64,000 bases of DNA from assembly GCA_030267565.1 (NCBI GenBank), contig BRXU01000035.1:589001-653000 (forward strand). The letters run 5' to 3'. How positions within the stretch are numbered: the stretch's first letter is position 1; each line of letters starts with the position of its first letter. The notes under the pieces are model-generated. The model was not told the DNA's origin, searched no databases, and saw only the letters and a list, made by a program, of their open reading frames with translations. Position numbers and translations under genes: made by a program. Positions 32,758 to 57,824 of this stretch are shown in pieces. The stretch comes from Pleodorina starrii. Its lineage: Eukaryota; Chlorophyta; Chlorophyceae; Chlamydomonadales; Volvocaceae.

Positions 32758-33444
32758 CCAACGTGGGACAAGTCTAAAGCTCCTTGCGGTGGTGGGGGGG
32801 GCTGGGACCGGGGAAACCCGTCACCCCACCCCCTCTGCTCCCATAACCCACGCCTCGGCTACCGGCCGGGCGTATCATTATTATTATTATTTGCCGAGGG
32901 AGACGTGGGGGCGCTGTGCGGTTGTCCTTGAGTGTCATAAATGGTTCCAGCGCCAGGTTGGTTACAACGCTTTTGTGCAAATGTTCGAGAGCCGCAGCAT
33001 ATATGTGTGGACGCATATCCTGTGCTGCCTAGATCCAACAACAAACCTACAGGAAAAACACATTTAGCCGTACCTAGCTTAATCGTTTTGACAATCATTC
33101 CCTACCTTCGCCTTCCCAACCGCTACCCGCGGACTCTTCCCAACCTCTACCCAACTTCTCTACCGGCGGCTTTGCACGCTGACGCAGACCTATCCTCCTC
33201 AGCCGCCAGCCACGACATGTTACCCAAATGCACGATTGGCGGAGTGGGTTCGTAAGGATCCGACGACTCGGCTTAAATCCGGCGGCAGTGGAGGATTCGT
33301 AATGGTTCCGGCATTGGATCCATGCGACGGGCCACACAAAGGTTAGTCATGGTTCTATGGCGCCAACAAATTTAGCTTGCTCGAGTGAAACGCGTACCCA
33401 TTTTACCGGCGGCGACGCTTTTGCCCCGGCACAGTCTGCCGATT

Positions 33445-34247
33445 CACTAAAAGACAGAAGTTCGGGCTCAAACTGCACACCGTTCCACACCCCCAGGCAC
33501 TTGACCTGCCTTAACTCCTTTTCTCTATCGAATTTTTTAAATCTGCAAAGCGTGCGTGGCTCCTAGGCTCAATGCGCATCCGTCGTACTGGTCTAACCAA
33601 CATAAGGCCACAGGGGTGTGCGAGCAAAGCGCCGTACGTGGCCTGAAGCGCAGCCGCAGCTCTTGGCTCTGAGCAGGGCGTTTAGTCCAAGAGACGCTGT
33701 TCACGTAGGAGTCCTTTTCTTGCGACGGCGCCCATTGTACATGATTTTCCCCACATAGCAGCTACTTTTGGTATGCGCGGGAGGCGCTTAGAGCTTTCGG
33801 ACGCGAAAGGGCTTGCGTTGGCATTTACCCTTAGGCTCAGCATGGGGTAGGGGTGGCCGTGGGTGTGGACGGACTCCCATGACCGCCATTTACGTTCCAT
33901 TAGTGAATTGCACGCCCGCTTCGCCACGATTCTACCGTATTGTGTGTTCATAAGACGAGGTTGTGGGGCGCTGGGCTATTGGCATGAATTGGCGACTGGA
34001 GATGACCATTTTCCGGTAGGGGTACGATCGGTGGTCCTGGCGGACGGCTCGGTCACGTTTGTACTCAAACCCTGGCTAAAATTGAACCCGCATTCATTAC
34101 AATTTGTTTTATAGTATACACCTTAACTAGTAAGGATTATGACGGAAAAAGTCCGGCGACAAACGGTGCAGGCCTGGGTCCGGCAGCGGCCATTAAGTGG
34201 GCACAGGGCCCTCTAAACGTTCGGGCCCGAACTTCTGTCTTTTAGTG
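33445..34247. mobile_element. E module, copy 1 (left array end)
   Basis: 803 bp with perfect 23-bp terminal inverted repeats, CACTA outermost. A 14-bp palindrome GTTCGGGCCCGAAC lies at the inner edge of the right repeat. No transposase domain is seen. CACTA-type ends with a 3-bp target duplication match the EnSpm/CACTA rule, so by its ends E looks like a non-autonomous element of that kind. Its left edge is the left end of the whole array. Confidence 0.88.
33682..33951 (-). CDS. Hypothetical 89-aa ORF inside E
   Basis: An ATG-started frame with no family I recognise, rich in Arg and Ser, no membrane segment. A plus-strand frame (about 33866-34114, without ATG) overlaps it, so at most one is likely to be real. 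Identical frames exist in the other six E modules (for example 37103-37372 and 56829-57098). Confidence 0.2.
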   Translation of the reverse strand: MNTQYGRIVAKRACNSLMERKWRSWESVHTHGHPYPMLSLRVNANASPFASESSKRLPRIPKVAAMWGKSCTMGAVARKGLLREQRLLD

Positions 34248-34426
34248 ATGCGGGGAAGGGCCTTCTGACAGCTTTCGTCGCCCTTTCGCCTGCGACAACC
34301 GTATTCGCAATAATAAGTTTTGTACTCAAAAGACGTATTAGCGCACAAAAGCTCCAATCCCGAAATGTCTTCATACCGCGGGGCATTATAGTTGACTTGG
34401 ACTTCCTCGCATCGCCTCCATTCCAC
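34248..34426 (-). other. Coding-like frame broken by E insertion
   Basis: A minus-strand frame without ATG reads CEEVQVNYNAPRYEDISGLE and then YYCEYGCRRRKGDES, followed by CQKALPR, and runs into the E inverted repeat. If E and one AT are removed, the frame continues from the other T end (36865) through MILFENPGTSNSLPLKRHAG to a stop at 36785, 28 nt before the transposase ATG. The function is unknown and it may be an exon. Confidence 0.35.
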
Positions 34427-34731
34427 TAATACACCACTGAATTACCATCTATATAACACTATAGATACCACAGCGCGTCCGGCGGCCGTAATACCAACTC
34501 TTAGGTTGTTGACGCTTCACCCCGCGGAGCGATGCTCGGCCATTGAGCAGCCCGGACGCACAGAACGTACGGATTACCACCGCCCAGCACGTTTACACAA
34601 CATGTGCAAACAGACAATTAAATTACGCGCCCCATCGGTACTGTAACGCAATACTGAAACGCCTATACGGCGCGCACCCACCCCACGCCCCGCCCGCCCG
34701 TCGCTCAGTGAACCCGCCTGGCGAGCCCCCA

Positions 34732-36757
34732 TTAGCGGTATTTCTTTGGAGGGTAGTCCCCATTGGCCTGGAGGATTGCGGGCAGCACGTCGATGAACAG
34801 CCGGTGGGTGGTTGCCTTGGCCCACTCGGGGGTTATGGTTGCCTGAAACAGTTCCCCTAAGCTTTCCGTGTACGGCTCCAGAGAGTCACCCGGGCCGCCC
34901 TCGCGGTTGTTGATGAACTGCTGCATCTCGTGCATGAGCCGCGCGTGGCTCAGCTCGATGACGCTATGCATATCCGGGCTGTACGGCGGCAGCTGCATGT
35001 GGGTTTCGGTGTCGATGCCCAGAGAGCCCCACCCGTCCGCCTCGTCACGATAGTTGCCGTGAATGCGGGTGTTGTCCCATGAAAAGATGGGGGGCAACGT
35101 CTCGCAGAACTCATCGTTCCAAACCTTGAGGCACGCCTTGATAAAGTCCTTGAACTCCGCCGCCGTAGGTCCACGGGCCTTGCACTTACGCCCCTGCAAC
35201 CACAGCGTGGAGGGCACAACAGGAGGGCTTTGGATCCGTGGGCCCGGGCTCATTTCAGCGAGCGCAACTCGGTTTCCGTGGATTCCCTGAGCAGAGATGA
35301 TAGTAAGGTTGTCCTGTGGATCTGCGAGTGTGGCTGTCACGTGGCGATGAGCCCCCATGCCGTCGCCAACAACACTCGGCGCCACTCGGCGCAGGGTGAG
35401 CCCCCGACGTGCTTCAACTGCCCCCTTCACCACCGGGCAAGCACGCTTAGCCAGTACGCAGTCACTGCATTTGCGCACGCTAGCCTGGTGTCGGCCATGT
35501 TGAGCAGGCAGTTTCTAGTAACCGTGGTTTGGGGTGTGCACGCCGTGGAGGGCCACCGTGCCTTTGACATGGCTTTTTACGAGCACAAGGTGTTGATTGA
35601 GGTAGATGGCGAGCAGCACTTTCAGGGAAGGTTCCAATCAATCGGTGCGGAAGAGCAAGCGAGGCTGCCGCCCTCAGCGCGGGTTACCATGTCGTACGGT
35701 TGCACTACCGTGACGTGCCCGCGTTCTTCGCAACGTTGTGGGGTGCCCTGGTGTATGCCATCGCACATGGGTCCCCGAAGCTTTTTGCCACCCCATCGTA
35801 CCCACGTACCTTTGGGGCGTACGTCTTCGCTGGCTTGTAGCCCTTGCCATGGGTGCCGGAAACCAGAACAATAAGGACTGCCCCGAGCTTGTAGTTGACG
35901 GCGCTGTAGTAGTGGACGACCCACGCACCCCTTGCCCGGCTGTCTTGCACCACTATCGAGTCCGAACCGCGCGTGCCCCAGACCTTGTGCGCCTTGGGCT
36001 TAATGTAAAATTTCTTGGCGTCCACCCAAATGACGATCTCCAGCTTGGCGGTGTTCAGGTCCTCCGGCGTCCGCGGGATGGCAACGGGCGGCGGTGGGGT
36101 GTCGTCGGTGGAGGGGGAAGGGGGCGCGGGCTGCTTGGTGAAGCGTCTCATCCACAGCTCAGACGCCCGGACACGCTCCTCCTTCACTTCACTTTTAAGC
36201 GGGGGCCTGTACTCGATCAGCACATGCTTGCCCAGCTTAGGATCGGCTACCTTGACACTCCGCCAGATGGACCGCTCCGAAACATTGTGAGCCGCCTTGA
36301 TGCTAGCGAAGTGTGTCGTCATCTCACGCTGGGTGCGCGGCCGCACGGTCTTGACTAGTGTCAAGGCTTCCTCCACCACTCCCGACGGAAGTTTGCGTGG
36401 GCGGCCCTTGCGCTCCGTGTCCTCTACGCTGCCAGTAGCTTGAAATGCAGCGTGCCATTGGGCGCAGAAGCGGGCTGCGTTTGTCGGACGGGGAAGCGCC
36501 TCACCCCGCAGCTCTGCCTCGTCAAGGTACCTTAGTAAAATCCGGCCAGCTTCAGCGGCCCAGCACCTTGGAGGCTCAGCCTCCTTATTTTTATTTTTGC
36601 GGGCCCCGTGAAGCTCATTACGGGCGATGGAGGAAGCTTCTACGGCAAGCGTGCGCACGGGGAGCCATTTCTGGGCGCGTTTGTTGGTGGGGGTGCTACT
36701 GACCCGCGGGTCACCAGCGGCCGCCCGCGTCCCACCCCGTGAAGCGAAACCCGGCAT
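34732..36757 (-). CDS. Tc1/mariner/IS630-like DDE transposase (T1), two exons
   Basis: Cut-and-paste transposase. Exon 1 is 36757-35810 (ATG at 36757, 316 codons) and exon 2 is 35286-34732 (184 codons plus stop), 500 aa. The intron 35809-35287 (523 bp) starts AAAG|GTACGT and ends TCTCTGCTCAG|GG, phase 0 on both sides. Residues about 70-170 form a helix-turn-helix region including KGRPRKLPSGVVEEAL and NVSERSIWRSV. Catalytic residues: Asp246 in IVIWVDAKKFYI, Asp387 in SWDNTRIHG and Glu427 in LPPYSPDMHSVIE. The last two have 39 residues between them (DD39E-like). Without splicing the protein would stop at 35705 and lose two of three catalytic residues. A short upstream ATG frame lies in the 108-bp leader between E2 and this start. 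Confidence 0.8.
35296..35840 (+). pseudogene. Antisense EDxHD (Vsr/DUF559-like) nuclease in the transposase intron (T1)
   Basis: On the strand opposite the transposase a frame reads KVVLWICECGCHVAM, then a second Cys pair (CFNC), a zinc-ribbon-like pattern, and then AFDMAFYEHKVLIEVDGEQHF, the Asp...Glu-x-Asp-Gly-x-x-His core of Vsr/DUF559-type nucleases. Near 35650-35670 the sense moves to another frame, ALSAGYHVVRLHYRDV, the usual C-terminal strand-helix of that fold, ending at TAG 35838-35840. It lies almost wholly inside the 523-bp transposase intron. There is no ATG before the zinc ribbon, and one frameshift breaks it in all seven copies, so it is most likely a fossil of a homing-type nuclease. 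Confidence 0.7.
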
Positions 36758-36865
36758 GCCGTGCGTGCTGAGCTTCTCCCAGCCTTAGCCGCCGTTCATA
36801 GCATTCCCTGCATGGCGTTTCAAAGGAAGGCTGTTGCTCGTCCCAGGGTTTTCAAACAAAATCAT

Positions 36866-37668
36866 CACTAAAAGACAGAAGTTCGGGCTCAAACTGCACA
36901 CCGTTCCACACCCCCAGGCACTTGACCTGCCTTAACTCCTTTTCTCTATCGAATTTTTTAAATCTGCAAAGCGTGCGTGGCTCCTAGGCTCAATGCGCAT
37001 CCGTCGTACTGGTCTAACCAACATAAGGCCACAGGGGTGTGCGAGCAAAGCGCCGTACGTGGCCTGAAGCGCAGCCGCAGCTCTTGGCTCTGAGCAGGGC
37101 GTTTAGTCCAAGAGACGCTGTTCACGTAGGAGTCCTTTTCTTGCGACGGCGCCCATTGTACATGATTTTCCCCACATAGCAGCTACTTTTGGTATGCGCG
37201 GGAGGCGCTTAGAGCTTTCGGACGCGAAAGGGCTTGCGTTGGCATTTACCCTTAGGCTCAGCATGGGGTAGGGGTGGCCGTGGGTGTGGACGGACTCCCA
37301 TGACCGCCATTTACGTTCCATTAGTGAATTGCACGCCCGCTTCGCCACGATTCTACCGTATTGTGTGTTCATAAGACGAGGTTGTGGGGCGCTGGGCTAT
37401 TGGCATGAATTGGCGACTGGAGATGACCATTTTCCGGTAGGGGTACGATCGGTGGTCCTGGCGGACGGCTCGGTCACGTTTGTACTCAAACCCTGGCTAA
37501 AATTGAACCCGCATTCATTACAATTTGTTTTATAGTATACACCTTAACTAGTAAGGATTATGACGGAAAAAGTCCGGCGACAAACGGTGCAGGCCTGGGT
37601 CCGGCAGCGGCCATTAAGTGGGCACAGGGCCCTCTAAACGTTCGGGCCCGAACTTCTGTCTTTTAGTG
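36866..37668. mobile_element. E module, copy 2
   Basis: Same as E copy 1, between T1 and T2. For the leftward-reading T1 transposase, this module sits directly upstream, 108 bp from its ATG, so it could supply promoter sequence. Confidence 0.88.
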
Positions 37669-38152
37669 ATGCGGGGAAGGGCCTTCTGACAGCTTTCGTC
37701 GCCCTTTCGCCTGCGACAACCGTATTCGCAATAATAAGTTTTGTACTCAAAAGACGTATTAGCGCACAAAAGCTCCAATCCCGAAATGTCTTCATACCGC
37801 GGGGCATTATAGTTGACTTGGACTTCCTCGCATCGCCTCCATTCCACTAATACACCACTGAATTACCATCTATATAACACTATAGATACCACAGCGCGTC
37901 CGGCGGCCGTAATACCAACTCTTAGGTTGTTGACGCTTCACCCCGCGGAGCGATGCTCGGCCATTGAGCAGCCCGGACGCACAGAACGTACGGATTACCA
38001 CCGCCCAGCACGTTTACACAACATGTGCAAACAGACAATTAAATTACGCGCCCCATCGGTACTGTAACGCAATACTGAAACGCCTATACGGCGCGCACCC
38101 ACCCCACGCCCCGCCCGCCCGTCGCTCAGTGAACCCGCCTGGCGAGCCCCCA

Positions 38153-40178
38153 TTAGCGGTATTTCTTTGGAGGGTAGTCCCCATTGGCCTGGAGGATTGC
38201 GGGCAGCACGTCGATGAACAGCCGGTGGGTGGTTGCCTTGGCCCACTCGGGGGTTATGGTTGCCTGAAACAGTTCCCCTAAGCTTTCCGTGTACGGCTCC
38301 AGAGAGTCACCCGGGCCGCCCTCGCGGTTGTTGATGAACTGCTGCATCTCGTGCATGAGCCGCGCGTGGCTCAGCTCGATGACGCTATGCATATCCGGGC
38401 TGTACGGCGGCAGCTGCATGTGGGTTTCGGTGTCGATGCCCAGAGAGCCCCACCCGTCCGCCTCGTCACGATAGTTGCCGTGAATGCGGGTGTTGTCCCA
38501 TGAAAAGATGGGGGGCAACGTCTCGCAGAACTCATCGTTCCAAACCTTGAGGCACGCCTTGATAAAGTCCTTGAACTCCGCCGCCGTAGGTCCACGGGCC
38601 TTGCACTTACGCCCCTGCAACCACAGCGTGGAGGGCACAACAGGAGGGCTTTGGATCCGTGGGCCCGGGCTCATTTCAGCGAGCGCAACTCGGTTTCCGT
38701 GGATTCCCTGAGCAGAGATGATAGTAAGGTTGTCCTGTGGATCTGCGAGTGTGGCTGTCACGTGGCGATGAGCCCCCATGCCGTCGCCAACAACACTCGG
38801 CGCCACTCGGCGCAGGGTGAGCCCCCGACGTGCTTCAACTGCCCCCTTCACCACCGGGCAAGCACGCTTAGCCAGTACGCAGTCACTGCATTTGCGCACG
38901 CTAGCCTGGTGTCGGCCATGTTGAGCAGGCAGTTTCTAGTAACCGTGGTTTGGGGTGTGCACGCCGTGGAGGGCCACCGTGCCTTTGACATGGCTTTTTA
39001 CGAGCACAAGGTGTTGATTGAGGTAGATGGCGAGCAGCACTTTCAGGGAAGGTTCCAATCAATCGGTGCGGAAGAGCAAGCGAGGCTGCCGCCCTCAGCG
39101 CGGGTTACCATGTCGTACGGTTGCACTACCGTGACGTGCCCGCGTTCTTCGCAACGTTGTGGGGTGCCCTGGTGTATGCCATCGCACATGGGTCCCCGAA
39201 GCTTTTTGCCACCCCATCGTACCCACGTACCTTTGGGGCGTACGTCTTCGCTGGCTTGTAGCCCTTGCCATGGGTGCCGGAAACCAGAACAATAAGGACT
39301 GCCCCGAGCTTGTAGTTGACGGCGCTGTAGTAGTGGACGACCCACGCACCCCTTGCCCGGCTGTCTTGCACCACTATCGAGTCCGAACCGCGCGTGCCCC
39401 AGACCTTGTGCGCCTTGGGCTTAATGTAAAATTTCTTGGCGTCCACCCAAATGACGATCTCCAGCTTGGCGGTGTTCAGGTCCTCCGGCGTCCGCGGGAT
39501 GGCAACGGGCGGCGGTGGGGTGTCGTCGGTGGAGGGGGAAGGGGGCGCGGGCTGCTTGGTGAAGCGTCTCATCCACAGCTCAGACGCCCGGACACGCTCC
39601 TCCTTCACTTCACTTTTAAGCGGGGGCCTGTACTCGATCAGCACATGCTTGCCCAGCTTAGGATCGGCTACCTTGACACTCCGCCAGATGGACCGCTCCG
39701 AAACATTGTGAGCCGCCTTGATGCTAGCGAAGTGTGTCGTCATCTCACGCTGGGTGCGCGGCCGCACGGTCTTGACTAGTGTCAAGGCTTCCTCCACCAC
39801 TCCCGACGGAAGTTTGCGTGGGCGGCCCTTGCGCTCCGTGTCCTCTACGCTGCCAGTAGCTTGAAATGCAGCGTGCCATTGGGCGCAGAAGCGGGCTGCG
39901 TTTGTCGGACGGGGAAGCGCCTCACCCCGCAGCTCTGCCTCGTCAAGGTACCTTAGTAAAATCCGGCCAGCTTCAGCGGCCCAGCACCTTGGAGGCTCAG
40001 CCTCCTTATTTTTATTTTTGCGGGCCCCGTGAAGCTCATTACGGGCGATGGAGGAAGCTTCTACGGCAAGCGTGCGCACGGGGAGCCATTTCTGGGCGCG
40101 TTTGTTGGTGGGGGTGCTACTGACCCGCGGGTCACCAGCGGCCGCCCGCGTCCCACCCCGTGAAGCGAAACCCGGCAT
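38153..40178 (-). CDS. DDE transposase (T2), two exons
   Basis: Copy of the T1 transposase with the same 500-aa spliced product. Exons 40178-39231 and 38707-38153; intron 39230-38708. The catalytic residues read as in T1. Confidence 0.8.
38717..39261 (+). pseudogene. Antisense nuclease in intron (T2)
   Basis: Same zinc-ribbon plus IEVDGEQHF nuclease frame with the same frameshift as in T1. Confidence 0.68.
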
Positions 40179-40286
40179 GCCGTGCGTGCTGAGCTTCTCC
40201 CAGCCTTAGCCGCCGTTCATAGCATTCCCTGCATGGCGTTTCAAAGGAAGGCTGTTGCTCGTCCCAGGGTTTTCAAACAAAATCAT

Positions 40287-41089
40287 CACTAAAAGACAGA
40301 AGTTCGGGCTCAAACTGCACACCGTTCCACACCCCCAGGCACTTGACCTGCCTTAACTCCTTTTCTCTATCGAATTTTTTAAATCTGCAAAGCGTGCGTG
40401 GCTCCTAGGCTCAATGCGCATCCGTCGTACTGGTCTAACCAACATAAGGCCACAGGGGTGTGCGAGCAAAGCGCCGTACGTGGCCTGAAGCGCAGCCGCA
40501 GCTCTTGGCTCTGAGCAGGGCGTTTAGTCCAAGAGACGCTGTTCACGTAGGAGTCCTTTTCTTGCGACGGCGCCCATTGTACATGATTTTCCCCACATAG
40601 CAGCTACTTTTGGTATGCGCGGGAGGCGCTTAGAGCTTTCGGACGCGAAAGGGCTTGCGTTGGCATTTACCCTTAGGCTCAGCATGGGGTAGGGGTGGCC
40701 GTGGGTGTGGACGGACTCCCATGACCGCCATTTACGTTCCATTAGTGAATTGCACGCCCGCTTCGCCACGATTCTACCGTATTGTGTGTTCATAAGACGA
40801 GGTTGTGGGGCGCTGGGCTATTGGCATGAATTGGCGACTGGAGATGACCATTTTCCGGTAGGGGTACGATCGGTGGTCCTGGCGGACGGCTCGGTCACGT
40901 TTGTACTCAAACCCTGGCTAAAATTGAACCCGCATTCATTACAATTTGTTTTATAGTATACACCTTAACTAGTAAGGATTATGACGGAAAAAGTCCGGCG
41001 ACAAACGGTGCAGGCCTGGGTCCGGCAGCGGCCATTAAGTGGGCACAGGGCCCTCTAAACGTTCGGGCCCGAACTTCTGTCTTTTAGTG
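40287..41089. mobile_element. E module, copy 3
   Basis: 803 bp, identical ends to copy 1; between T2 and T3. Confidence 0.88.
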
Positions 41090-41573
41090 ATGCGGGGAAG
41101 GGCCTTCTGACAGCTTTCGTCGCCCTTTCGCCTGCGACAACCGTATTCGCAATAATAAGTTTTGTACTCAAAAGACGTATTAGCGCACAAAAGCTCCAAT
41201 CCCGAAATGTCTTCATACCGCGGGGCATTATAGTTGACTTGGACTTCCTCGCATCGCCTCCATTCCACTAATACACCACTGAATTACCATCTATATAACA
41301 CTATAGATACCACAGCGCGTCCGGCGGCCGTAATACCAACTCTTAGGTTGTTGACGCTTCACCCCGCGGAGCGATGCTCGGCCATTGAGCAGCCCGGACG
41401 CACAGAACGTACGGATTACCACCGCCCAGCACGTTTACACAACATGTGCAAACAGACAATTAAATTACGCGCCCCATCGGTACTGTAACGCAATACTGAA
41501 ACGCCTATACGGCGCGCACCCACCCCACGCCCCGCCCGCCCGTCGCTCAGTGAACCCGCCTGGCGAGCCCCCA

Positions 41574-43599
41574 TTAGCGGTATTTCTTTGGAGGGTAGTC
41601 CCCATTGGCCTGGAGGATTGCGGGCAGCACGTCGATGAACAGCCGGTGGGTGGTTGCCTTGGCCCACTCGGGGGTTATGGTTGCCTGAAACAGTTCCCCT
41701 AAGCTTTCCGTGTACGGCTCCAGAGAGTCACCCGGGCCGCCCTCGCGGTTGTTGATGAACTGCTGCATCTCGTGCATGAGCCGCGCGTGGCTCAGCTCGA
41801 TGACGCTATGCATATCCGGGCTGTACGGCGGCAGCTGCATGTGGGTTTCGGTGTCGATGCCCAGAGAGCCCCACCCGTCCGCCTCGTCACGATAGTTGCC
41901 GTGAATGCGGGTGTTGTCCCATGAAAAGATGGGGGGCAACGTCTCGCAGAACTCATCGTTCCAAACCTTGAGGCACGCCTTGATAAAGTCCTTGAACTCC
42001 GCCGCCGTAGGTCCACGGGCCTTGCACTTACGCCCCTGCAACCACAGCGTGGAGGGCACAACAGGAGGGCTTTGGATCCGTGGGCCCGGGCTCATTTCAG
42101 CGAGCGCAACTCGGTTTCCGTGGATTCCCTGAGCAGAGATGATAGTAAGGTTGTCCTGTGGATCTGCGAGTGTGGCTGTCACGTGGCGATGAGCCCCCAT
42201 GCCGTCGCCAACAACACTCGGCGCCACTCGGCGCAGGGTGAGCCCCCGACGTGCTTCAACTGCCCCCTTCACCACCGGGCAAGCACGCTTAGCCAGTACG
42301 CAGTCACTGCATTTGCGCACGCTAGCCTGGTGTCGGCCATGTTGAGCAGGCAGTTTCTAGTAACCGTGGTTTGGGGTGTGCACGCCGTGGAGGGCCACCG
42401 TGCCTTTGACATGGCTTTTTACGAGCACAAGGTGTTGATTGAGGTAGATGGCGAGCAGCACTTTCAGGGAAGGTTCCAATCAATCGGTGCGGAAGAGCAA
42501 GCGAGGCTGCCGCCCTCAGCGCGGGTTACCATGTCGTACGGTTGCACTACCGTGACGTGCCCGCGTTCTTCGCAACGTTGTGGGGTGCCCTGGTGTATGC
42601 CATCGCACATGGGTCCCCGAAGCTTTTTGCCACCCCATCGTACCCACGTACCTTTGGGGCGTACGTCTTCGCTGGCTTGTAGCCCTTGCCATGGGTGCCG
42701 GAAACCAGAACAATAAGGACTGCCCCGAGCTTGTAGTTGACGGCGCTGTAGTAGTGGACGACCCACGCACCCCTTGCCCGGCTGTCTTGCACCACTATCG
42801 AGTCCGAACCGCGCGTGCCCCAGACCTTGTGCGCCTTGGGCTTAATGTAAAATTTCTTGGCGTCCACCCAAATGACGATCTCCAGCTTGGCGGTGTTCAG
42901 GTCCTCCGGCGTCCGCGGGATGGCAACGGGCGGCGGTGGGGTGTCGTCGGTGGAGGGGGAAGGGGGCGCGGGCTGCTTGGTGAAGCGTCTCATCCACAGC
43001 TCAGACGCCCGGACACGCTCCTCCTTCACTTCACTTTTAAGCGGGGGCCTGTACTCGATCAGCACATGCTTGCCCAGCTTAGGATCGGCTACCTTGACAC
43101 TCCGCCAGATGGACCGCTCCGAAACATTGTGAGCCGCCTTGATGCTAGCGAAGTGTGTCGTCATCTCACGCTGGGTGCGCGGCCGCACGGTCTTGACTAG
43201 TGTCAAGGCTTCCTCCACCACTCCCGACGGAAGTTTGCGTGGGCGGCCCTTGCGCTCCGTGTCCTCTACGCTGCCAGTAGCTTGAAATGCAGCGTGCCAT
43301 TGGGCGCAGAAGCGGGCTGCGTTTGTCGGACGGGGAAGCGCCTCACCCCGCAGCTCTGCCTCGTCAAGGTACCTTAGTAAAATCCGGCCAGCTTCAGCGG
43401 CCCAGCACCTTGGAGGCTCAGCCTCCTTATTTTTATTTTTGCGGGCCCCGTGAAGCTCATTACGGGCGATGGAGGAAGCTTCTACGGCAAGCGTGCGCAC
43501 GGGGAGCCATTTCTGGGCGCGTTTGTTGGTGGGGGTGCTACTGACCCGCGGGTCACCAGCGGCCGCCCGCGTCCCACCCCGTGAAGCGAAACCCGGCAT
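41574..43599 (-). CDS. DDE transposase (T3), two exons
   Basis: Copy of the T1 transposase. Exons 43599-42652 and 42128-41574; intron 42651-42129. Confidence 0.8.
42138..42682 (+). pseudogene. Antisense nuclease in intron (T3)
   Basis: Same frame pair and frameshift as in T1. Confidence 0.68.
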
Positions 43600-43707
43600 G
43601 CCGTGCGTGCTGAGCTTCTCCCAGCCTTAGCCGCCGTTCATAGCATTCCCTGCATGGCGTTTCAAAGGAAGGCTGTTGCTCGTCCCAGGGTTTTCAAACA
43701 AAATCAT

Positions 43708-44510
43708 CACTAAAAGACAGAAGTTCGGGCTCAAACTGCACACCGTTCCACACCCCCAGGCACTTGACCTGCCTTAACTCCTTTTCTCTATCGAATTTTT
43801 TAAATCTGCAAAGCGTGCGTGGCTCCTAGGCTCAATGCGCATCCGTCGTACTGGTCTAACCAACATAAGGCCACAGGGGTGTGCGAGCAAAGCGCCGTAC
43901 GTGGCCTGAAGCGCAGCCGCAGCTCTTGGCTCTGAGCAGGGCGTTTAGTCCAAGAGACGCTGTTCACGTAGGAGTCCTTTTCTTGCGACGGCGCCCATTG
44001 TACATGATTTTCCCCACATAGCAGCTACTTTTGGTATGCGCGGGAGGCGCTTAGAGCTTTCGGACGCGAAAGGGCTTGCGTTGGCATTTACCCTTAGGCT
44101 CAGCATGGGGTAGGGGTGGCCGTGGGTGTGGACGGACTCCCATGACCGCCATTTACGTTCCATTAGTGAATTGCACGCCCGCTTCGCCACGATTCTACCG
44201 TATTGTGTGTTCATAAGACGAGGTTGTGGGGCGCTGGGCTATTGGCATGAATTGGCGACTGGAGATGACCATTTTCCGGTAGGGGTACGATCGGTGGTCC
44301 TGGCGGACGGCTCGGTCACGTTTGTACTCAAACCCTGGCTAAAATTGAACCCGCATTCATTACAATTTGTTTTATAGTATACACCTTAACTAGTAAGGAT
44401 TATGACGGAAAAAGTCCGGCGACAAACGGTGCAGGCCTGGGTCCGGCAGCGGCCATTAAGTGGGCACAGGGCCCTCTAAACGTTCGGGCCCGAACTTCTG
44501 TCTTTTAGTG
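43708..44510. mobile_element. E module, copy 4
   Basis: 803 bp, identical ends to copy 1; between T3 and T4. Confidence 0.88.
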
Positions 44511-44994
44511 ATGCGGGGAAGGGCCTTCTGACAGCTTTCGTCGCCCTTTCGCCTGCGACAACCGTATTCGCAATAATAAGTTTTGTACTCAAAAGACGTA
44601 TTAGCGCACAAAAGCTCCAATCCCGAAATGTCTTCATACCGCGGGGCATTATAGTTGACTTGGACTTCCTCGCATCGCCTCCATTCCACTAATACACCAC
44701 TGAATTACCATCTATATAACACTATAGATACCACAGCGCGTCCGGCGGCCGTAATACCAACTCTTAGGTTGTTGACGCTTCACCCCGCGGAGCGATGCTC
44801 GGCCATTGAGCAGCCCGGACGCACAGAACGTACGGATTACCACCGCCCAGCACGTTTACACAACATGTGCAAACAGACAATTAAATTACGCGCCCCATCG
44901 GTACTGTAACGCAATACTGAAACGCCTATACGGCGCGCACCCACCCCACGCCCCGCCCGCCCGTCGCTCAGTGAACCCGCCTGGCGAGCCCCCA

Positions 44995-47020: not shown

Positions 47021-47128
47021 GCCGTGCGTGCTGAGCTTCTCCCAGCCTTAGCCGCCGTTCATAGCATTCCCTGCATGGCGTTTCAAAGGAAGGCTGTTGC
47101 TCGTCCCAGGGTTTTCAAACAAAATCAT

Positions 47129-47131
47129 CAG
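47129..47131. other. T-T junction with 3-bp CAG in place of E
   Basis: The junction reads ...AACAAAATCAT-CAG-ATGCGGGGAAGG.... Everywhere else an 803-bp E module sits between the same two flanks. CAG equals the first two bases plus the last base of E, consistent with a footprint left by excision. Confidence 0.8.
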
Positions 47132-47615
47132 ATGCGGGGAAGGGCCTTCTGACAGCTTTCGTCGCCCTTTCGCCTGCGACAACCGTATTCGCAATAATAA
47201 GTTTTGTACTCAAAAGACGTATTAGCGCACAAAAGCTCCAATCCCGAAATGTCTTCATACCGCGGGGCATTATAGTTGACTTGGACTTCCTCGCATCGCC
47301 TCCATTCCACTAATACACCACTGAATTACCATCTATATAACACTATAGATACCACAGCGCGTCCGGCGGCCGTAATACCAACTCTTAGGTTGTTGACGCT
47401 TCACCCCGCGGAGCGATGCTCGGCCATTGAGCAGCCCGGACGCACAGAACGTACGGATTACCACCGCCCAGCACGTTTACACAACATGTGCAAACAGACA
47501 ATTAAATTACGCGCCCCATCGGTACTGTAACGCAATACTGAAACGCCTATACGGCGCGCACCCACCCCACGCCCCGCCCGCCCGTCGCTCAGTGAACCCG
47601 CCTGGCGAGCCCCCA

Positions 47616-49641
47616 TTAGCGGTATTTCTTTGGAGGGTAGTCCCCATTGGCCTGGAGGATTGCGGGCAGCACGTCGATGAACAGCCGGTGGGTGGTTGCC
47701 TTGGCCCACTCGGGGGTTATGGTTGCCTGAAACAGTTCCCCTAAGCTTTCCGTGTACGGCTCCAGAGAGTCACCCGGGCCGCCCTCGCGGTTGTTGATGA
47801 ACTGCTGCATCTCGTGCATGAGCCGCGCGTGGCTCAGCTCGATGACGCTATGCATATCCGGGCTGTACGGCGGCAGCTGCATGTGGGTTTCGGTGTCGAT
47901 GCCCAGAGAGCCCCACCCGTCCGCCTCGTCACGATAGTTGCCGTGAATGCGGGTGTTGTCCCATGAAAAGATGGGGGGCAACGTCTCGCAGAACTCATCG
48001 TTCCAAACCTTGAGGCACGCCTTGATAAAGTCCTTGAACTCCGCCGCCGTAGGTCCACGGGCCTTGCACTTACGCCCCTGCAACCACAGCGTGGAGGGCA
48101 CAACAGGAGGGCTTTGGATCCGTGGGCCCGGGCTCATTTCAGCGAGCGCAACTCGGTTTCCGTGGATTCCCTGAGCAGAGATGATAGTAAGGTTGTCCTG
48201 TGGATCTGCGAGTGTGGCTGTCACGTGGCGATGAGCCCCCATGCCGTCGCCAACAACACTCGGCGCCACTCGGCGCAGGGTGAGCCCCCGACGTGCTTCA
48301 ACTGCCCCCTTCACCACCGGGCAAGCACGCTTAGCCAGTACGCAGTCACTGCATTTGCGCACGCTAGCCTGGTGTCGGCCATGTTGAGCAGGCAGTTTCT
48401 AGTAACCGTGGTTTGGGGTGTGCACGCCGTGGAGGGCCACCGTGCCTTTGACATGGCTTTTTACGAGCACAAGGTGTTGATTGAGGTAGATGGCGAGCAG
48501 CACTTTCAGGGAAGGTTCCAATCAATCGGTGCGGAAGAGCAAGCGAGGCTGCCGCCCTCAGCGCGGGTTACCATGTCGTACGGTTGCACTACCGTGACGT
48601 GCCCGCGTTCTTCGCAACGTTGTGGGGTGCCCTGGTGTATGCCATCGCACATGGGTCCCCGAAGCTTTTTGCCACCCCATCGTACCCACGTACCTTTGGG
48701 GCGTACGTCTTCGCTGGCTTGTAGCCCTTGCCATGGGTGCCGGAAACCAGAACAATAAGGACTGCCCCGAGCTTGTAGTTGACGGCGCTGTAGTAGTGGA
48801 CGACCCACGCACCCCTTGCCCGGCTGTCTTGCACCACTATCGAGTCCGAACCGCGCGTGCCCCAGACCTTGTGCGCCTTGGGCTTAATGTAAAATTTCTT
48901 GGCGTCCACCCAAATGACGATCTCCAGCTTGGCGGTGTTCAGGTCCTCCGGCGTCCGCGGGATGGCAACGGGCGGCGGTGGGGTGTCGTCGGTGGAGGGG
49001 GAAGGGGGCGCGGGCTGCTTGGTGAAGCGTCTCATCCACAGCTCAGACGCCCGGACACGCTCCTCCTTCACTTCACTTTTAAGCGGGGGCCTGTACTCGA
49101 TCAGCACATGCTTGCCCAGCTTAGGATCGGCTACCTTGACACTCCGCCAGATGGACCGCTCCGAAACATTGTGAGCCGCCTTGATGCTAGCGAAGTGTGT
49201 CGTCATCTCACGCTGGGTGCGCGGCCGCACGGTCTTGACTAGTGTCAAGGCTTCCTCCACCACTCCCGACGGAAGTTTGCGTGGGCGGCCCTTGCGCTCC
49301 GTGTCCTCTACGCTGCCAGTAGCTTGAAATGCAGCGTGCCATTGGGCGCAGAAGCGGGCTGCGTTTGTCGGACGGGGAAGCGCCTCACCCCGCAGCTCTG
49401 CCTCGTCAAGGTACCTTAGTAAAATCCGGCCAGCTTCAGCGGCCCAGCACCTTGGAGGCTCAGCCTCCTTATTTTTATTTTTGCGGGCCCCGTGAAGCTC
49501 ATTACGGGCGATGGAGGAAGCTTCTACGGCAAGCGTGCGCACGGGGAGCCATTTCTGGGCGCGTTTGTTGGTGGGGGTGCTACTGACCCGCGGGTCACCA
49601 GCGGCCGCCCGCGTCCCACCCCGTGAAGCGAAACCCGGCAT
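47616..49641 (-). CDS. DDE transposase (T5), two exons
   Basis: Copy of the T1 transposase. Exons 49641-48694 and 48170-47616; intron 48693-48171. Confidence 0.8.
48180..48724 (+). pseudogene. Antisense nuclease in intron (T5)
   Basis: Same frame pair and frameshift as in T1. Confidence 0.68.
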
Positions 49642-49749
49642 GCCGTGCGTGCTGAGCTTCTCCCAGCCTTAGCCGCCGTTCATAGCATTCCCTGCATGGC
49701 GTTTCAAAGGAAGGCTGTTGCTCGTCCCAGGGTTTTCAAACAAAATCAT

Positions 49750-50552
49750 CACTAAAAGACAGAAGTTCGGGCTCAAACTGCACACCGTTCCACACCCCCA
49801 GGCACTTGACCTGCCTTAACTCCTTTTCTCTATCGAATTTTTTAAATCTGCAAAGCGTGCGTGGCTCCTAGGCTCAATGCGCATCCGTCGTACTGGTCTA
49901 ACCAACATAAGGCCACAGGGGTGTGCGAGCAAAGCGCCGTACGTGGCCTGAAGCGCAGCCGCAGCTCTTGGCTCTGAGCAGGGCGTTTAGTCCAAGAGAC
50001 GCTGTTCACGTAGGAGTCCTTTTCTTGCGACGGCGCCCATTGTACATGATTTTCCCCACATAGCAGCTACTTTTGGTATGCGCGGGAGGCGCTTAGAGCT
50101 TTCGGACGCGAAAGGGCTTGCGTTGGCATTTACCCTTAGGCTCAGCATGGGGTAGGGGTGGCCGTGGGTGTGGACGGACTCCCATGACCGCCATTTACGT
50201 TCCATTAGTGAATTGCACGCCCGCTTCGCCACGATTCTACCGTATTGTGTGTTCATAAGACGAGGTTGTGGGGCGCTGGGCTATTGGCATGAATTGGCGA
50301 CTGGAGATGACCATTTTCCGGTAGGGGTACGATCGGTGGTCCTGGCGGACGGCTCGGTCACGTTTGTACTCAAACCCTGGCTAAAATTGAACCCGCATTC
50401 ATTACAATTTGTTTTATAGTATACACCTTAACTAGTAAGGATTATGACGGAAAAAGTCCGGCGACAAACGGTGCAGGCCTGGGTCCAGCAGCGGCCATTA
50501 AGTGGGCACAGGGCCCTCTAAACGTTCGGGCCCGAACTTCTGTCTTTTAGTG
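49750..50552. mobile_element. E module, copy 5 (one variant base)
   Basis: 803 bp. Position 50487 is A (GGGTCCAGCAGC) where the other six E copies have G. This is the only unit-specific base I noticed in the array. Confidence 0.88.
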
Positions 50553-51036
50553 ATGCGGGGAAGGGCCTTCTGACAGCTTTCGTCGCCCTTTCGCCTGCGA
50601 CAACCGTATTCGCAATAATAAGTTTTGTACTCAAAAGACGTATTAGCGCACAAAAGCTCCAATCCCGAAATGTCTTCATACCGCGGGGCATTATAGTTGA
50701 CTTGGACTTCCTCGCATCGCCTCCATTCCACTAATACACCACTGAATTACCATCTATATAACACTATAGATACCACAGCGCGTCCGGCGGCCGTAATACC
50801 AACTCTTAGGTTGTTGACGCTTCACCCCGCGGAGCGATGCTCGGCCATTGAGCAGCCCGGACGCACAGAACGTACGGATTACCACCGCCCAGCACGTTTA
50901 CACAACATGTGCAAACAGACAATTAAATTACGCGCCCCATCGGTACTGTAACGCAATACTGAAACGCCTATACGGCGCGCACCCACCCCACGCCCCGCCC
51001 GCCCGTCGCTCAGTGAACCCGCCTGGCGAGCCCCCA

Positions 51037-53062
51037 TTAGCGGTATTTCTTTGGAGGGTAGTCCCCATTGGCCTGGAGGATTGCGGGCAGCACGTCGATG
51101 AACAGCCGGTGGGTGGTTGCCTTGGCCCACTCGGGGGTTATGGTTGCCTGAAACAGTTCCCCTAAGCTTTCCGTGTACGGCTCCAGAGAGTCACCCGGGC
51201 CGCCCTCGCGGTTGTTGATGAACTGCTGCATCTCGTGCATGAGCCGCGCGTGGCTCAGCTCGATGACGCTATGCATATCCGGGCTGTACGGCGGCAGCTG
51301 CATGTGGGTTTCGGTGTCGATGCCCAGAGAGCCCCACCCGTCCGCCTCGTCACGATAGTTGCCGTGAATGCGGGTGTTGTCCCATGAAAAGATGGGGGGC
51401 AACGTCTCGCAGAACTCATCGTTCCAAACCTTGAGGCACGCCTTGATAAAGTCCTTGAACTCCGCCGCCGTAGGTCCACGGGCCTTGCACTTACGCCCCT
51501 GCAACCACAGCGTGGAGGGCACAACAGGAGGGCTTTGGATCCGTGGGCCCGGGCTCATTTCAGCGAGCGCAACTCGGTTTCCGTGGATTCCCTGAGCAGA
51601 GATGATAGTAAGGTTGTCCTGTGGATCTGCGAGTGTGGCTGTCACGTGGCGATGAGCCCCCATGCCGTCGCCAACAACACTCGGCGCCACTCGGCGCAGG
51701 GTGAGCCCCCGACGTGCTTCAACTGCCCCCTTCACCACCGGGCAAGCACGCTTAGCCAGTACGCAGTCACTGCATTTGCGCACGCTAGCCTGGTGTCGGC
51801 CATGTTGAGCAGGCAGTTTCTAGTAACCGTGGTTTGGGGTGTGCACGCCGTGGAGGGCCACCGTGCCTTTGACATGGCTTTTTACGAGCACAAGGTGTTG
51901 ATTGAGGTAGATGGCGAGCAGCACTTTCAGGGAAGGTTCCAATCAATCGGTGCGGAAGAGCAAGCGAGGCTGCCGCCCTCAGCGCGGGTTACCATGTCGT
52001 ACGGTTGCACTACCGTGACGTGCCCGCGTTCTTCGCAACGTTGTGGGGTGCCCTGGTGTATGCCATCGCACATGGGTCCCCGAAGCTTTTTGCCACCCCA
52101 TCGTACCCACGTACCTTTGGGGCGTACGTCTTCGCTGGCTTGTAGCCCTTGCCATGGGTGCCGGAAACCAGAACAATAAGGACTGCCCCGAGCTTGTAGT
52201 TGACGGCGCTGTAGTAGTGGACGACCCACGCACCCCTTGCCCGGCTGTCTTGCACCACTATCGAGTCCGAACCGCGCGTGCCCCAGACCTTGTGCGCCTT
52301 GGGCTTAATGTAAAATTTCTTGGCGTCCACCCAAATGACGATCTCCAGCTTGGCGGTGTTCAGGTCCTCCGGCGTCCGCGGGATGGCAACGGGCGGCGGT
52401 GGGGTGTCGTCGGTGGAGGGGGAAGGGGGCGCGGGCTGCTTGGTGAAGCGTCTCATCCACAGCTCAGACGCCCGGACACGCTCCTCCTTCACTTCACTTT
52501 TAAGCGGGGGCCTGTACTCGATCAGCACATGCTTGCCCAGCTTAGGATCGGCTACCTTGACACTCCGCCAGATGGACCGCTCCGAAACATTGTGAGCCGC
52601 CTTGATGCTAGCGAAGTGTGTCGTCATCTCACGCTGGGTGCGCGGCCGCACGGTCTTGACTAGTGTCAAGGCTTCCTCCACCACTCCCGACGGAAGTTTG
52701 CGTGGGCGGCCCTTGCGCTCCGTGTCCTCTACGCTGCCAGTAGCTTGAAATGCAGCGTGCCATTGGGCGCAGAAGCGGGCTGCGTTTGTCGGACGGGGAA
52801 GCGCCTCACCCCGCAGCTCTGCCTCGTCAAGGTACCTTAGTAAAATCCGGCCAGCTTCAGCGGCCCAGCACCTTGGAGGCTCAGCCTCCTTATTTTTATT
52901 TTTGCGGGCCCCGTGAAGCTCATTACGGGCGATGGAGGAAGCTTCTACGGCAAGCGTGCGCACGGGGAGCCATTTCTGGGCGCGTTTGTTGGTGGGGGTG
53001 CTACTGACCCGCGGGTCACCAGCGGCCGCCCGCGTCCCACCCCGTGAAGCGAAACCCGGCAT
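51037..53062 (-). CDS. DDE transposase (T6), two exons
   Basis: Copy of the T1 transposase. Exons 53062-52115 and 51591-51037; intron 52114-51592. Confidence 0.8.
51601..52145 (+). pseudogene. Antisense nuclease in intron (T6)
   Basis: Same frame pair and frameshift as in T1. Confidence 0.68.
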
Positions 53063-53170
53063 GCCGTGCGTGCTGAGCTTCTCCCAGCCTTAGCCGCCGT
53101 TCATAGCATTCCCTGCATGGCGTTTCAAAGGAAGGCTGTTGCTCGTCCCAGGGTTTTCAAACAAAATCAT

Positions 53171-53973
53171 CACTAAAAGACAGAAGTTCGGGCTCAAACT
53201 GCACACCGTTCCACACCCCCAGGCACTTGACCTGCCTTAACTCCTTTTCTCTATCGAATTTTTTAAATCTGCAAAGCGTGCGTGGCTCCTAGGCTCAATG
53301 CGCATCCGTCGTACTGGTCTAACCAACATAAGGCCACAGGGGTGTGCGAGCAAAGCGCCGTACGTGGCCTGAAGCGCAGCCGCAGCTCTTGGCTCTGAGC
53401 AGGGCGTTTAGTCCAAGAGACGCTGTTCACGTAGGAGTCCTTTTCTTGCGACGGCGCCCATTGTACATGATTTTCCCCACATAGCAGCTACTTTTGGTAT
53501 GCGCGGGAGGCGCTTAGAGCTTTCGGACGCGAAAGGGCTTGCGTTGGCATTTACCCTTAGGCTCAGCATGGGGTAGGGGTGGCCGTGGGTGTGGACGGAC
53601 TCCCATGACCGCCATTTACGTTCCATTAGTGAATTGCACGCCCGCTTCGCCACGATTCTACCGTATTGTGTGTTCATAAGACGAGGTTGTGGGGCGCTGG
53701 GCTATTGGCATGAATTGGCGACTGGAGATGACCATTTTCCGGTAGGGGTACGATCGGTGGTCCTGGCGGACGGCTCGGTCACGTTTGTACTCAAACCCTG
53801 GCTAAAATTGAACCCGCATTCATTACAATTTGTTTTATAGTATACACCTTAACTAGTAAGGATTATGACGGAAAAAGTCCGGCGACAAACGGTGCAGGCC
53901 TGGGTCCGGCAGCGGCCATTAAGTGGGCACAGGGCCCTCTAAACGTTCGGGCCCGAACTTCTGTCTTTTAGTG
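53171..53973. mobile_element. E module, copy 6
   Basis: 803 bp, identical ends to copy 1; between T6 and T7. Confidence 0.88.
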
Positions 53974-54457
53974 ATGCGGGGAAGGGCCTTCTGACAGCTT
54001 TCGTCGCCCTTTCGCCTGCGACAACCGTATTCGCAATAATAAGTTTTGTACTCAAAAGACGTATTAGCGCACAAAAGCTCCAATCCCGAAATGTCTTCAT
54101 ACCGCGGGGCATTATAGTTGACTTGGACTTCCTCGCATCGCCTCCATTCCACTAATACACCACTGAATTACCATCTATATAACACTATAGATACCACAGC
54201 GCGTCCGGCGGCCGTAATACCAACTCTTAGGTTGTTGACGCTTCACCCCGCGGAGCGATGCTCGGCCATTGAGCAGCCCGGACGCACAGAACGTACGGAT
54301 TACCACCGCCCAGCACGTTTACACAACATGTGCAAACAGACAATTAAATTACGCGCCCCATCGGTACTGTAACGCAATACTGAAACGCCTATACGGCGCG
54401 CACCCACCCCACGCCCCGCCCGCCCGTCGCTCAGTGAACCCGCCTGGCGAGCCCCCA

Positions 54458-56483
54458 TTAGCGGTATTTCTTTGGAGGGTAGTCCCCATTGGCCTGGAGG
54501 ATTGCGGGCAGCACGTCGATGAACAGCCGGTGGGTGGTTGCCTTGGCCCACTCGGGGGTTATGGTTGCCTGAAACAGTTCCCCTAAGCTTTCCGTGTACG
54601 GCTCCAGAGAGTCACCCGGGCCGCCCTCGCGGTTGTTGATGAACTGCTGCATCTCGTGCATGAGCCGCGCGTGGCTCAGCTCGATGACGCTATGCATATC
54701 CGGGCTGTACGGCGGCAGCTGCATGTGGGTTTCGGTGTCGATGCCCAGAGAGCCCCACCCGTCCGCCTCGTCACGATAGTTGCCGTGAATGCGGGTGTTG
54801 TCCCATGAAAAGATGGGGGGCAACGTCTCGCAGAACTCATCGTTCCAAACCTTGAGGCACGCCTTGATAAAGTCCTTGAACTCCGCCGCCGTAGGTCCAC
54901 GGGCCTTGCACTTACGCCCCTGCAACCACAGCGTGGAGGGCACAACAGGAGGGCTTTGGATCCGTGGGCCCGGGCTCATTTCAGCGAGCGCAACTCGGTT
55001 TCCGTGGATTCCCTGAGCAGAGATGATAGTAAGGTTGTCCTGTGGATCTGCGAGTGTGGCTGTCACGTGGCGATGAGCCCCCATGCCGTCGCCAACAACA
55101 CTCGGCGCCACTCGGCGCAGGGTGAGCCCCCGACGTGCTTCAACTGCCCCCTTCACCACCGGGCAAGCACGCTTAGCCAGTACGCAGTCACTGCATTTGC
55201 GCACGCTAGCCTGGTGTCGGCCATGTTGAGCAGGCAGTTTCTAGTAACCGTGGTTTGGGGTGTGCACGCCGTGGAGGGCCACCGTGCCTTTGACATGGCT
55301 TTTTACGAGCACAAGGTGTTGATTGAGGTAGATGGCGAGCAGCACTTTCAGGGAAGGTTCCAATCAATCGGTGCGGAAGAGCAAGCGAGGCTGCCGCCCT
55401 CAGCGCGGGTTACCATGTCGTACGGTTGCACTACCGTGACGTGCCCGCGTTCTTCGCAACGTTGTGGGGTGCCCTGGTGTATGCCATCGCACATGGGTCC
55501 CCGAAGCTTTTTGCCACCCCATCGTACCCACGTACCTTTGGGGCGTACGTCTTCGCTGGCTTGTAGCCCTTGCCATGGGTGCCGGAAACCAGAACAATAA
55601 GGACTGCCCCGAGCTTGTAGTTGACGGCGCTGTAGTAGTGGACGACCCACGCACCCCTTGCCCGGCTGTCTTGCACCACTATCGAGTCCGAACCGCGCGT
55701 GCCCCAGACCTTGTGCGCCTTGGGCTTAATGTAAAATTTCTTGGCGTCCACCCAAATGACGATCTCCAGCTTGGCGGTGTTCAGGTCCTCCGGCGTCCGC
55801 GGGATGGCAACGGGCGGCGGTGGGGTGTCGTCGGTGGAGGGGGAAGGGGGCGCGGGCTGCTTGGTGAAGCGTCTCATCCACAGCTCAGACGCCCGGACAC
55901 GCTCCTCCTTCACTTCACTTTTAAGCGGGGGCCTGTACTCGATCAGCACATGCTTGCCCAGCTTAGGATCGGCTACCTTGACACTCCGCCAGATGGACCG
56001 CTCCGAAACATTGTGAGCCGCCTTGATGCTAGCGAAGTGTGTCGTCATCTCACGCTGGGTGCGCGGCCGCACGGTCTTGACTAGTGTCAAGGCTTCCTCC
56101 ACCACTCCCGACGGAAGTTTGCGTGGGCGGCCCTTGCGCTCCGTGTCCTCTACGCTGCCAGTAGCTTGAAATGCAGCGTGCCATTGGGCGCAGAAGCGGG
56201 CTGCGTTTGTCGGACGGGGAAGCGCCTCACCCCGCAGCTCTGCCTCGTCAAGGTACCTTAGTAAAATCCGGCCAGCTTCAGCGGCCCAGCACCTTGGAGG
56301 CTCAGCCTCCTTATTTTTATTTTTGCGGGCCCCGTGAAGCTCATTACGGGCGATGGAGGAAGCTTCTACGGCAAGCGTGCGCACGGGGAGCCATTTCTGG
56401 GCGCGTTTGTTGGTGGGGGTGCTACTGACCCGCGGGTCACCAGCGGCCGCCCGCGTCCCACCCCGTGAAGCGAAACCCGGCAT
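54458..56483 (-). CDS. DDE transposase (T7), two exons
   Basis: Copy of the T1 transposase. Exons 56483-55536 and 55012-54458; intron 55535-55013. Confidence 0.8.
55022..55566 (+). pseudogene. Antisense nuclease in intron (T7)
   Basis: Same frame pair and frameshift as in T1. Confidence 0.68.
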
Positions 56484-56591
56484 GCCGTGCGTGCTGAGCT
56501 TCTCCCAGCCTTAGCCGCCGTTCATAGCATTCCCTGCATGGCGTTTCAAAGGAAGGCTGTTGCTCGTCCCAGGGTTTTCAAACAAAATCAT

Positions 56592-57394
56592 CACTAAAAG
56601 ACAGAAGTTCGGGCTCAAACTGCACACCGTTCCACACCCCCAGGCACTTGACCTGCCTTAACTCCTTTTCTCTATCGAATTTTTTAAATCTGCAAAGCGT
56701 GCGTGGCTCCTAGGCTCAATGCGCATCCGTCGTACTGGTCTAACCAACATAAGGCCACAGGGGTGTGCGAGCAAAGCGCCGTACGTGGCCTGAAGCGCAG
56801 CCGCAGCTCTTGGCTCTGAGCAGGGCGTTTAGTCCAAGAGACGCTGTTCACGTAGGAGTCCTTTTCTTGCGACGGCGCCCATTGTACATGATTTTCCCCA
56901 CATAGCAGCTACTTTTGGTATGCGCGGGAGGCGCTTAGAGCTTTCGGACGCGAAAGGGCTTGCGTTGGCATTTACCCTTAGGCTCAGCATGGGGTAGGGG
57001 TGGCCGTGGGTGTGGACGGACTCCCATGACCGCCATTTACGTTCCATTAGTGAATTGCACGCCCGCTTCGCCACGATTCTACCGTATTGTGTGTTCATAA
57101 GACGAGGTTGTGGGGCGCTGGGCTATTGGCATGAATTGGCGACTGGAGATGACCATTTTCCGGTAGGGGTACGATCGGTGGTCCTGGCGGACGGCTCGGT
57201 CACGTTTGTACTCAAACCCTGGCTAAAATTGAACCCGCATTCATTACAATTTGTTTTATAGTATACACCTTAACTAGTAAGGATTATGACGGAAAAAGTC
57301 CGGCGACAAACGGTGCAGGCCTGGGTCCGGCAGCGGCCATTAAGTGGGCACAGGGCCCTCTAAACGTTCGGGCCCGAACTTCTGTCTTTTAGTG
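56592..57394. mobile_element. E module, copy 7 (right array end)
   Basis: 803 bp. Its right inverted repeat is the right end of the array and is followed by the ATT target duplication and the continuation of duplication copy 2. Confidence 0.88.
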
Positions 57395-57824
57395 ATTATT
57401 TGGGCCGGCACTTTATGGCCGATTCAACTAACGCACTGTGGGATATGACCAGGGTGAAAAGTGTTTCAATAGTGCCATCTGCAATAGGAAAAAAGAGAGC
57501 CGAGTAGTATTGCCGGATTGCCGTGAGAATACCGCGTCCCGTACCGTACTTCGAACGGAAGTCGCAACCGTGACTCACCATTCACACCCGCACCTTCTGA
57601 ATAGTGTGCCAGCTATTTTTCACGAATTTTTGAAATCTTTTTGTTGATCATGAAAGCGACCATGATTCTTTCAGGAAGTTGTCGAGGCGACTGGTTGCAG
57701 AAGCACTCATATGCAGCCCGAACGCGGTAGTTTTAGGAGTTTGTCAAGCCGACGACTTTGAACATGGCGTTAAGTATGCATTTGCGTTGAGTCAGTTTCC
57801 GGCTGTTTAGCAGCTTGGCCGAAT

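Follow-up and report, generated by a model that had tools for sequence, protein, structure and literature searches.

KolobokP elements (Kojima & Bao 2022) are animal transposons built on the plan LTDR-INT-LTDR, in which long terminal direct repeats (LTDRs) with terminal inverted repeats (TIRs) of their own stand around an internal coding region (INT), and the title of that report presents this eukaryotic lineage of composite-like transposons as unique (PMC9587614; statements on KolobokP here and below refer to parts of that paper). This article describes an element of the same plan from the green alga Pleodorina starrii, in which a module called E takes the place of the LTDR and a module called T that of the INT. 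It was found as an array in a sequence window of 64,000 nt (assembly GCA_030267565.1, contig BRXU01000035.1, positions 589,001-653,000 of the forward strand); the window means this whole stretch, and all array coordinates are positions within it. The array is a real, recent, composite-like transposon multimer. The E/T layout itself was already known from KolobokP, and in the algal lineage it seems to have originated a second time, independently.

The likeness to KolobokP extends beyond the plan. Solo LTDRs, (LTDR-INT)n-LTDR arrays, INT-INT joints and outer target-site duplications (TSDs) all have their counterparts among the E/T copies, the transposase is encoded in the INT, which in most families also carries an opposite-strand nuclease gene, and excision of the LTDR has been inferred (PMC9587614). 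However, KolobokP is found in animals and uses a Kolobok transposase, whereas E/T belongs to a green alga and apparently has a different, IS630/Tc1-mariner-like one; the KolobokP nuclease is a His-Me finger enzyme encoded downstream of the transposase, whereas that of E/T is DUF559-like and lies inside the transposase intron; the LTDR measures about 450 or 660 bp with a TSD of 3-5 bp, against 803 bp and 3 bp for E; and INT-INT joints almost always lose 3-4 bp, whereas the T-T joint keeps three extra bases (PMC9587614). The IS630, HTH_32 and DDE_3 signals apparently speak against a Kolobok transposase, as judged from these profiles and not from a direct Kolobok comparison. The E/T element is left unassigned to KolobokP, although it works like one.

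Bacterial composite transposons and IS26 translocatable units also carry mobile modules at both ends, and a circle route has been discussed for them, but in these bacterial systems the end modules encode the transposase, whereas in E/T the middle module does (PMC9587614, in part). With the IS630-Tc1-mariner (ITm) group E/T shares HTH_32-like and IS630/DDE_3 signals and a D-N...E motif, and it differs from that group in its composite plan and in a target duplication that is not TA. CACTA/EnSpm elements typically have CACTA...TAGTG ends and a 3-bp TSD, both of which E shows, but T has no Transposase_21 match. In FB-NOF of Drosophila, mobile repeat elements flank a transposase gene as in E/T, but these are foldback repeats and the transposase is Mutator-like. 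No description of the algal E/T element was found in the open-access literature, Repbase lying outside the search.

The array (about 24 kb; Table 1) consists of seven E modules of 803 bp and seven T modules of 2,618 bp in the order E T E T E T E T T E T E T E, with E at both outer ends. All seven T copies are identical, and so are six of the E copies, E5 having a single substitution. E begins with CACTA and has inverted repeats of 29 nt with 93% identity, the first 23 nt being perfect. A search of the T termini found no terminal repeats of T's own, and the comparison of E with T gave a best match at chance level (E = 0.26). T4 and T5 are joined directly through CAG, with no E between them. The flanks of the array are duplicated within the same window (about 10.4-17 kb), and when they are joined with one ATT they match, letter for letter over 40 bases, a site inside the duplicated flank; therefore, the whole 24 kb sits in a single ATT. 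The copy number rests on the genome assembly, and there is no doubt that the array is real, a judgement from 24 kb of near-identical units and not from a formal chance test. An earlier note on this DNA, made from its letters alone, had claimed seven E and seven T modules with E outermost, and one ATT duplication around them all; the exact coordinates and the one-ATT paralogous site bear this out. The strict alternation that it described would need eight E's, and one is missing at the T4-CAG-T5 joint. The label "CACTA-type" is right for the E ends but not for the transposase of T, which is IS630/Tc1-mariner-like in look. That a TIR-bearing E takes the part of a long terminal direct repeat, with the transposase module lying between its copies, was well seen, the target duplication being set by the E ends, but this layout, which the note did not recognise, had already been published for the animal KolobokP (PMC9587614, in part).

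Table 1. Features of the E/T array and its empty site, in window coordinates.
Feature	Position	Strand	Remark
Empty paralogous target site	11385..11424	+	one ATT; 40 bases identical to joined flanks
Left TSD, ATT	33442..33444	.	single ATT in paralogous empty site 11385-11424
E1	33445..34247	+	803 bp; CACTA...TAGTG; 29-nt TIRs, 93%
T1	34248..36865	+	2618 bp; own terminal repeats not found
Predicted transposase exon 2 in T1	34732..35178	-	second D and E of DDE triad, 39 residues between (counted by eye); same in every array T
Predicted transposase intron in T1	35179..35809	-	631 nt (616 nt by P0001 model)
ORF (open reading frame) starting the DUF559-like nuclease	35230..35874	+	mostly within transposase intron, antisense to transposase; broken near 35664
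Predicted transposase exon 1 in T1	35810..36757	-	HTH_32-like; first D of triad
E2	36866..37668	+
T2	37669..40286	+
E3	40287..41089	+
T3	41090..43707	+
E4	43708..44510	+
T4	44511..47128	+
CAG at T4-T5 joint	47129..47131	.	E missing; read as excision footprint; same joint in C52
T5	47132..49749	+
E5	49750..50552	+	one substitution at 50487
T6	50553..53170	+
E6	53171..53973	+
T7	53974..56591	+
E7	56592..57394	+
Right TSD, ATT	57395..57397	.

The whole genome assembly (136.06 Mb, 95 contigs) was searched for E and T, the match counts being lower bounds. E gave at least 41 matches and T at least 18, the latter in eight loci. Outside the array E occurs as solo E, as E-T-E and as E-T-T-E; the earlier note had proposed looking for solo E and single E-T-E, and both are present. 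An E-free T with ends of its own, named there as the contrary case, was sought and not found, since all 18 T matches fall in the eight loci and E is attached at every one. These loci are the window array (C35), an E-T-E of 4.2 kb with its own duplication ACT (C12), an E-T-E with a deletion spanning the first E-T joint (C1a), an E-T-T-E with one deletion and one insertion (C52), an E-T-E present twice (C7 and C1b, its duplicate) in which T has a deletion and one E is interrupted, a disrupted E/T locus (C3b) and an E with 424 bp of T (C16). The T-CAG-T joint was found twice, in the C35 array and in C52. Matching 3-bp duplications flank all 24 copies with both outer ends read (18 solo E's and six composites), or 22 of 22 after removal of two duplicated loci (one solo in a tandem-duplicated locus and one composite duplicate); in this count the C20 copy was admitted with one changed terminal base, and C16, C3b, C1:5416484 and the E fragments C20:1225303, C2:7461119 and C3:7333901 were left out. 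The duplicated triplets are of 12 distinct kinds (AAT, AAC, GTT, ATT, TAT, AGT, ACT, CAT, AGA, GGC, AAG and GTG), and TA is present only in TAT, so there is no TA rule. Furthermore, a genome search for the E TIR with up to three mismatches gave 74 hits, against none for the reversed control, and revealed no other family with E ends, the three hits beyond the E copies being E fragments. The same E-T-E, with identical near flanks, stands on two contigs (C7:2372890-2377388 and C1:4470332-4474830), possibly inside the GCS1-cluster duplication of contigs 1 and 7 mentioned in part of the assembly report (PMC10256686).

The minus strand of T carries a predicted two-exon transposase gene. P0001, a protein derived from GenBank for the C12 copy, has the same joint with five more residues, that is, with exon 2 starting 15 nt earlier, and the spacing from the second D to E is 39 residues in both P0001 and P0002 (counted by eye). 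An HTH_32 signal in the transposase is below cut-off. When five proteins were scanned with the IS630 profile, all scores were below NCBI's curated cut-off, with E-values of 4.3e-8 (P0002), 1.2e-7 (P0004), 9.5e-7 (P0003) and 0.048 (P0001) and no match for P0006; DDE_3 was matched in P0002 at 7.8e-4. Hence the transposase looks IS630/Tc1-mariner-like, by the E-values of its relatives and not by the curated cut-off. The Pfam scan gave no match of T's proteins to the EnSpm-type Transposase_21. PDB sequence searches gave no match up to E = 1 with the transposase alignment and a best E of 1.3, at chance level, with P0002, and a scan of viral contigs with the alignment gave 92 pattern matches, among which no relative was confirmed. 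Genome queries with the transposase, its relative P0007 and the nuclease relative P0009 found matches in T copies only; the alignment of P0007 to T begins in exon 1 and runs beyond its end, at 47% identity over the whole match, with one stop inside. P0002, a gene model of C. incerta, has one stretch of 295 residues twice in a row in identical form, which suggests tandem copies in that alga too. Among the T copies, exon 2 gave selection ratios of 0.07-0.56, from few changes.

The second coding region of T is a reading frame antisense to the transposase. Among the copies that contain this region, C1a (locus L039) is the only one of P. starrii in which an open frame was seen; an insertion interrupts the frame of C52, and the seven C35 copies and C12 have it broken. 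With the full C1a query, DUF559 was the only Pfam match (0.0088, below cut-off), and the relative P0009 passes the DUF559 cut-off (21.1 against 20.6 bits). The residues common to all three proteins include D...EVDGEQH, which resembles the pattern in PD-(D/E)XK/Vsr-type nucleases. The codons upstream of the break gave ratios of nonsynonymous to synonymous change of 1.14-1.99, from few changes, with no sign of constraint within the genome. The antisense arrangement is probably conserved in the relative represented by the database entries P0003 and P0008, because these are antisense-compatible over 77 nt, where ten shuffles gave 15-26 nt; seven other antisense pairs reached 14-27 nt, and only P0006/P0008 (27 nt; null 15-22) beat its own null. 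A structure model of P0009 has a mean predicted local distance difference test score (pLDDT) of 49, with block means of 66-80 at about residues 161-220, and the PDB search with P0009 gave a best E of 0.56, at chance level.

The histories of E and T could be compared across the loci. The groupings by E and by T agree, {C12, C35}, {C1a, C3b}, {C52, C16} and {C7}, some overlaps being short. The distances are correlated at r = 0.88 over five loci (4 of 120 permutations as high) and at r = 0.64 over six (6 of 720), C3b being left out as too fragmentary. Thus, E and T largely agree in lineage and seem to travel as one unit. Ten of the 18 solo E's lie within 0-3 changes (gaps ignored) of the E of one composite, and they fall in the C12, C7 and C1a lineages (three of four); the C52 lineage has variants in common with solo E's, none of these within 0-3 changes. 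Solo E's therefore seem to have been given off by the E-T unit, via transposition of E or recombination between the unit's two E's. The two E's of one composite share lineage variants, at few informative sites, C1a being uninformative and C12 mixed. A side-specific history, with left E's alike and right E's alike as in a long-lived composite without exchange, was not seen.

We consider it likely that the array is a multimer of E-T-E in which T's transposase pairs the E ends and moves the element by cut-and-paste, and which recombination has lengthened. E, with its inverted repeats and 3-bp target duplications, is a transposable unit that appears to be non-coding, and the transposase would accept any combination of a left and a right E end, so that a single E may move as a small non-autonomous element and the outermost ends may move E-T-E or longer forms. 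The CAG between T's would be a three-base scar of E excision, CA coming from the left end and G from the right, and the two cases of this joint may be separate events or one inherited event. Exchange between identical units, through unequal crossing-over or through gene conversion, may have lengthened the array, and passage through arrays, or through circles of E-T that recombination produces, would probably keep the unit's two E's alike. As has been suggested for KolobokP (PMC9587614, in part), the nuclease might induce exchange by cutting E. It is broken in both members of the lineage (C35 and C12), and therefore its action, if any, would be in trans or earlier.

Several observations weigh against this picture. 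Most IS630/Tc1-mariner elements duplicate TA (Sailor duplicates TATA, and some pogo elements TAA or TAAA), yet 11 of the 12 distinct E triplets contain no TA and the E ends are CACTA-like. The IS630 and DDE_3 profile scores are weak, a transposase structure model was left unused (pLDDT 41), and exon 1 shows no purifying selection among the T copies (ratios 1.05-2.99, few changes). In addition, the divergence between C52 and C16 is only 0.2% in T and reaches 1.5% in E, and two solo E's are nearer to the left E of C12 (C12_L) than its partner is. Moreover, other transposase-like genes of the genome could act on E, namely a CACTA-type candidate, the one genomic match to PF02992 (Transposase_21; C3:2918025-2918336, L074, 1.7e-7, with no E-TIR hits there), and six matches to DDE_3, of Tc1/IS630 type, that score above cut-off and lie outside T (C67:148164, C10:586929, C40:545518, C42:723279, C10:2678835 and C5:3360235).

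These last candidates lead to the reading of E as a miniature inverted-repeat transposable element moved by another transposase, of CACTA/EnSpm or DDE_3 type, with T as a passenger caught between two E's. The CACTA-like ends and the 3-bp duplications agree with it, but only E copies and fragments carry E ends, T, a transposase module in its own right, is linked to E at all eight loci, and the C. incerta model has its two identical transposase stretches in a row, so we think this quite improbable. Homologous integration, in which an E-T circle from a composite recombines into a solo E already in place, whose duplication then becomes the outer one, seems unlikely to a lesser degree; no new target duplications are needed for it to yield E-T-E and longer arrays, and a route like that of a translocatable unit has been proposed for KolobokP (PMC9587614, in part). 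However, the largely concordant E and T lineages oppose frequent capture by unrelated solo E's, the case within one lineage being unaffected.

The earlier note had preferred bacterial-style replicative cointegration, in which a circular E+T joins the target through its E ends and copying of E yields target-E-T-E-target in a single step. All six composites with both ends read do have an outer 3-bp duplication, the E pairs of C7 and C52 share variants (the C52 pair including one found in it alone), and the E's of C35 are nearly all alike. On the other hand, the ITm group is known for cut-and-paste, the E pair of C12 shares fewer variants, and cut-and-paste of E-T-E through the outer inverted repeats, with recombination, yields the same products. 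Because the T-CAG-T joints suggest excision of E, and recombination can make arrays grow, replicative cointegration is not needed, and we regard it as very improbable as the source of the array; a circular E+T intermediate may still occur. An assembly artefact, collapsed or inflated, is the least credible explanation. The units are identical, 24 kb exceeds the usual length of high-fidelity reads, and, according to part of its report, the P. starrii NIES-4479 assembly (95 contigs, 136.1 Mb) was made from PacBio high-fidelity reads by merging two assemblies and filling gaps (PMC10256686), but C12 carries a 4.2-kb E-T-E with a duplication of its own, C52 has the same T-CAG-T joint, and the E5 substitution and the T-T joint mark the interior of the array.

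The same layout is found in unrelated animal transposons and may therefore have arisen more than once. We give an even chance to a second, independent origin of the composite-like plan, in green algae, with a transposase of another group and an antisense nuclease of a different family. If this is true, the repeated pairing would indicate that terminal direct repeats work together with a DNA-cutting enzyme as one unit, perhaps to rebuild or multiply E-T units by recombination, and an enzyme of the IS630 group would have shifted to 3-bp targets. That an alga has the same plan with a seemingly unrelated transposase and nuclease points to convergence, and it makes the part played by the nuclease testable; since the nuclease frame is broken in C35, the longest array seen, and in C12, multimers may be able to grow with no nuclease encoded in cis. 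This recent set of near-identical copies is useful for studying how such elements move.

The surroundings of the array contain further repeats. The segmental duplication that supplies the empty site is about 82-96% identical between 10431-17009 and the segments 22672-23062, 32889-33444 and 57394-64000, its second copy being split by a long interspersed nuclear element (LINE) and by the E/T array. The LINE (about 9.8 kb, 23053-32898) looks intact and has two long ORFs, with Josephin (2e-6) and endonuclease (9e-12) domains, followed by reverse transcriptase, RNase H and, below threshold, a match to PCIF1_WW; judged against the duplicated flank, it is bordered at both ends by the short repeat TGCCGAG. 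A 42-bp minisatellite, with 4.5 copies at 100%, lies at 21203-21392 of the window.

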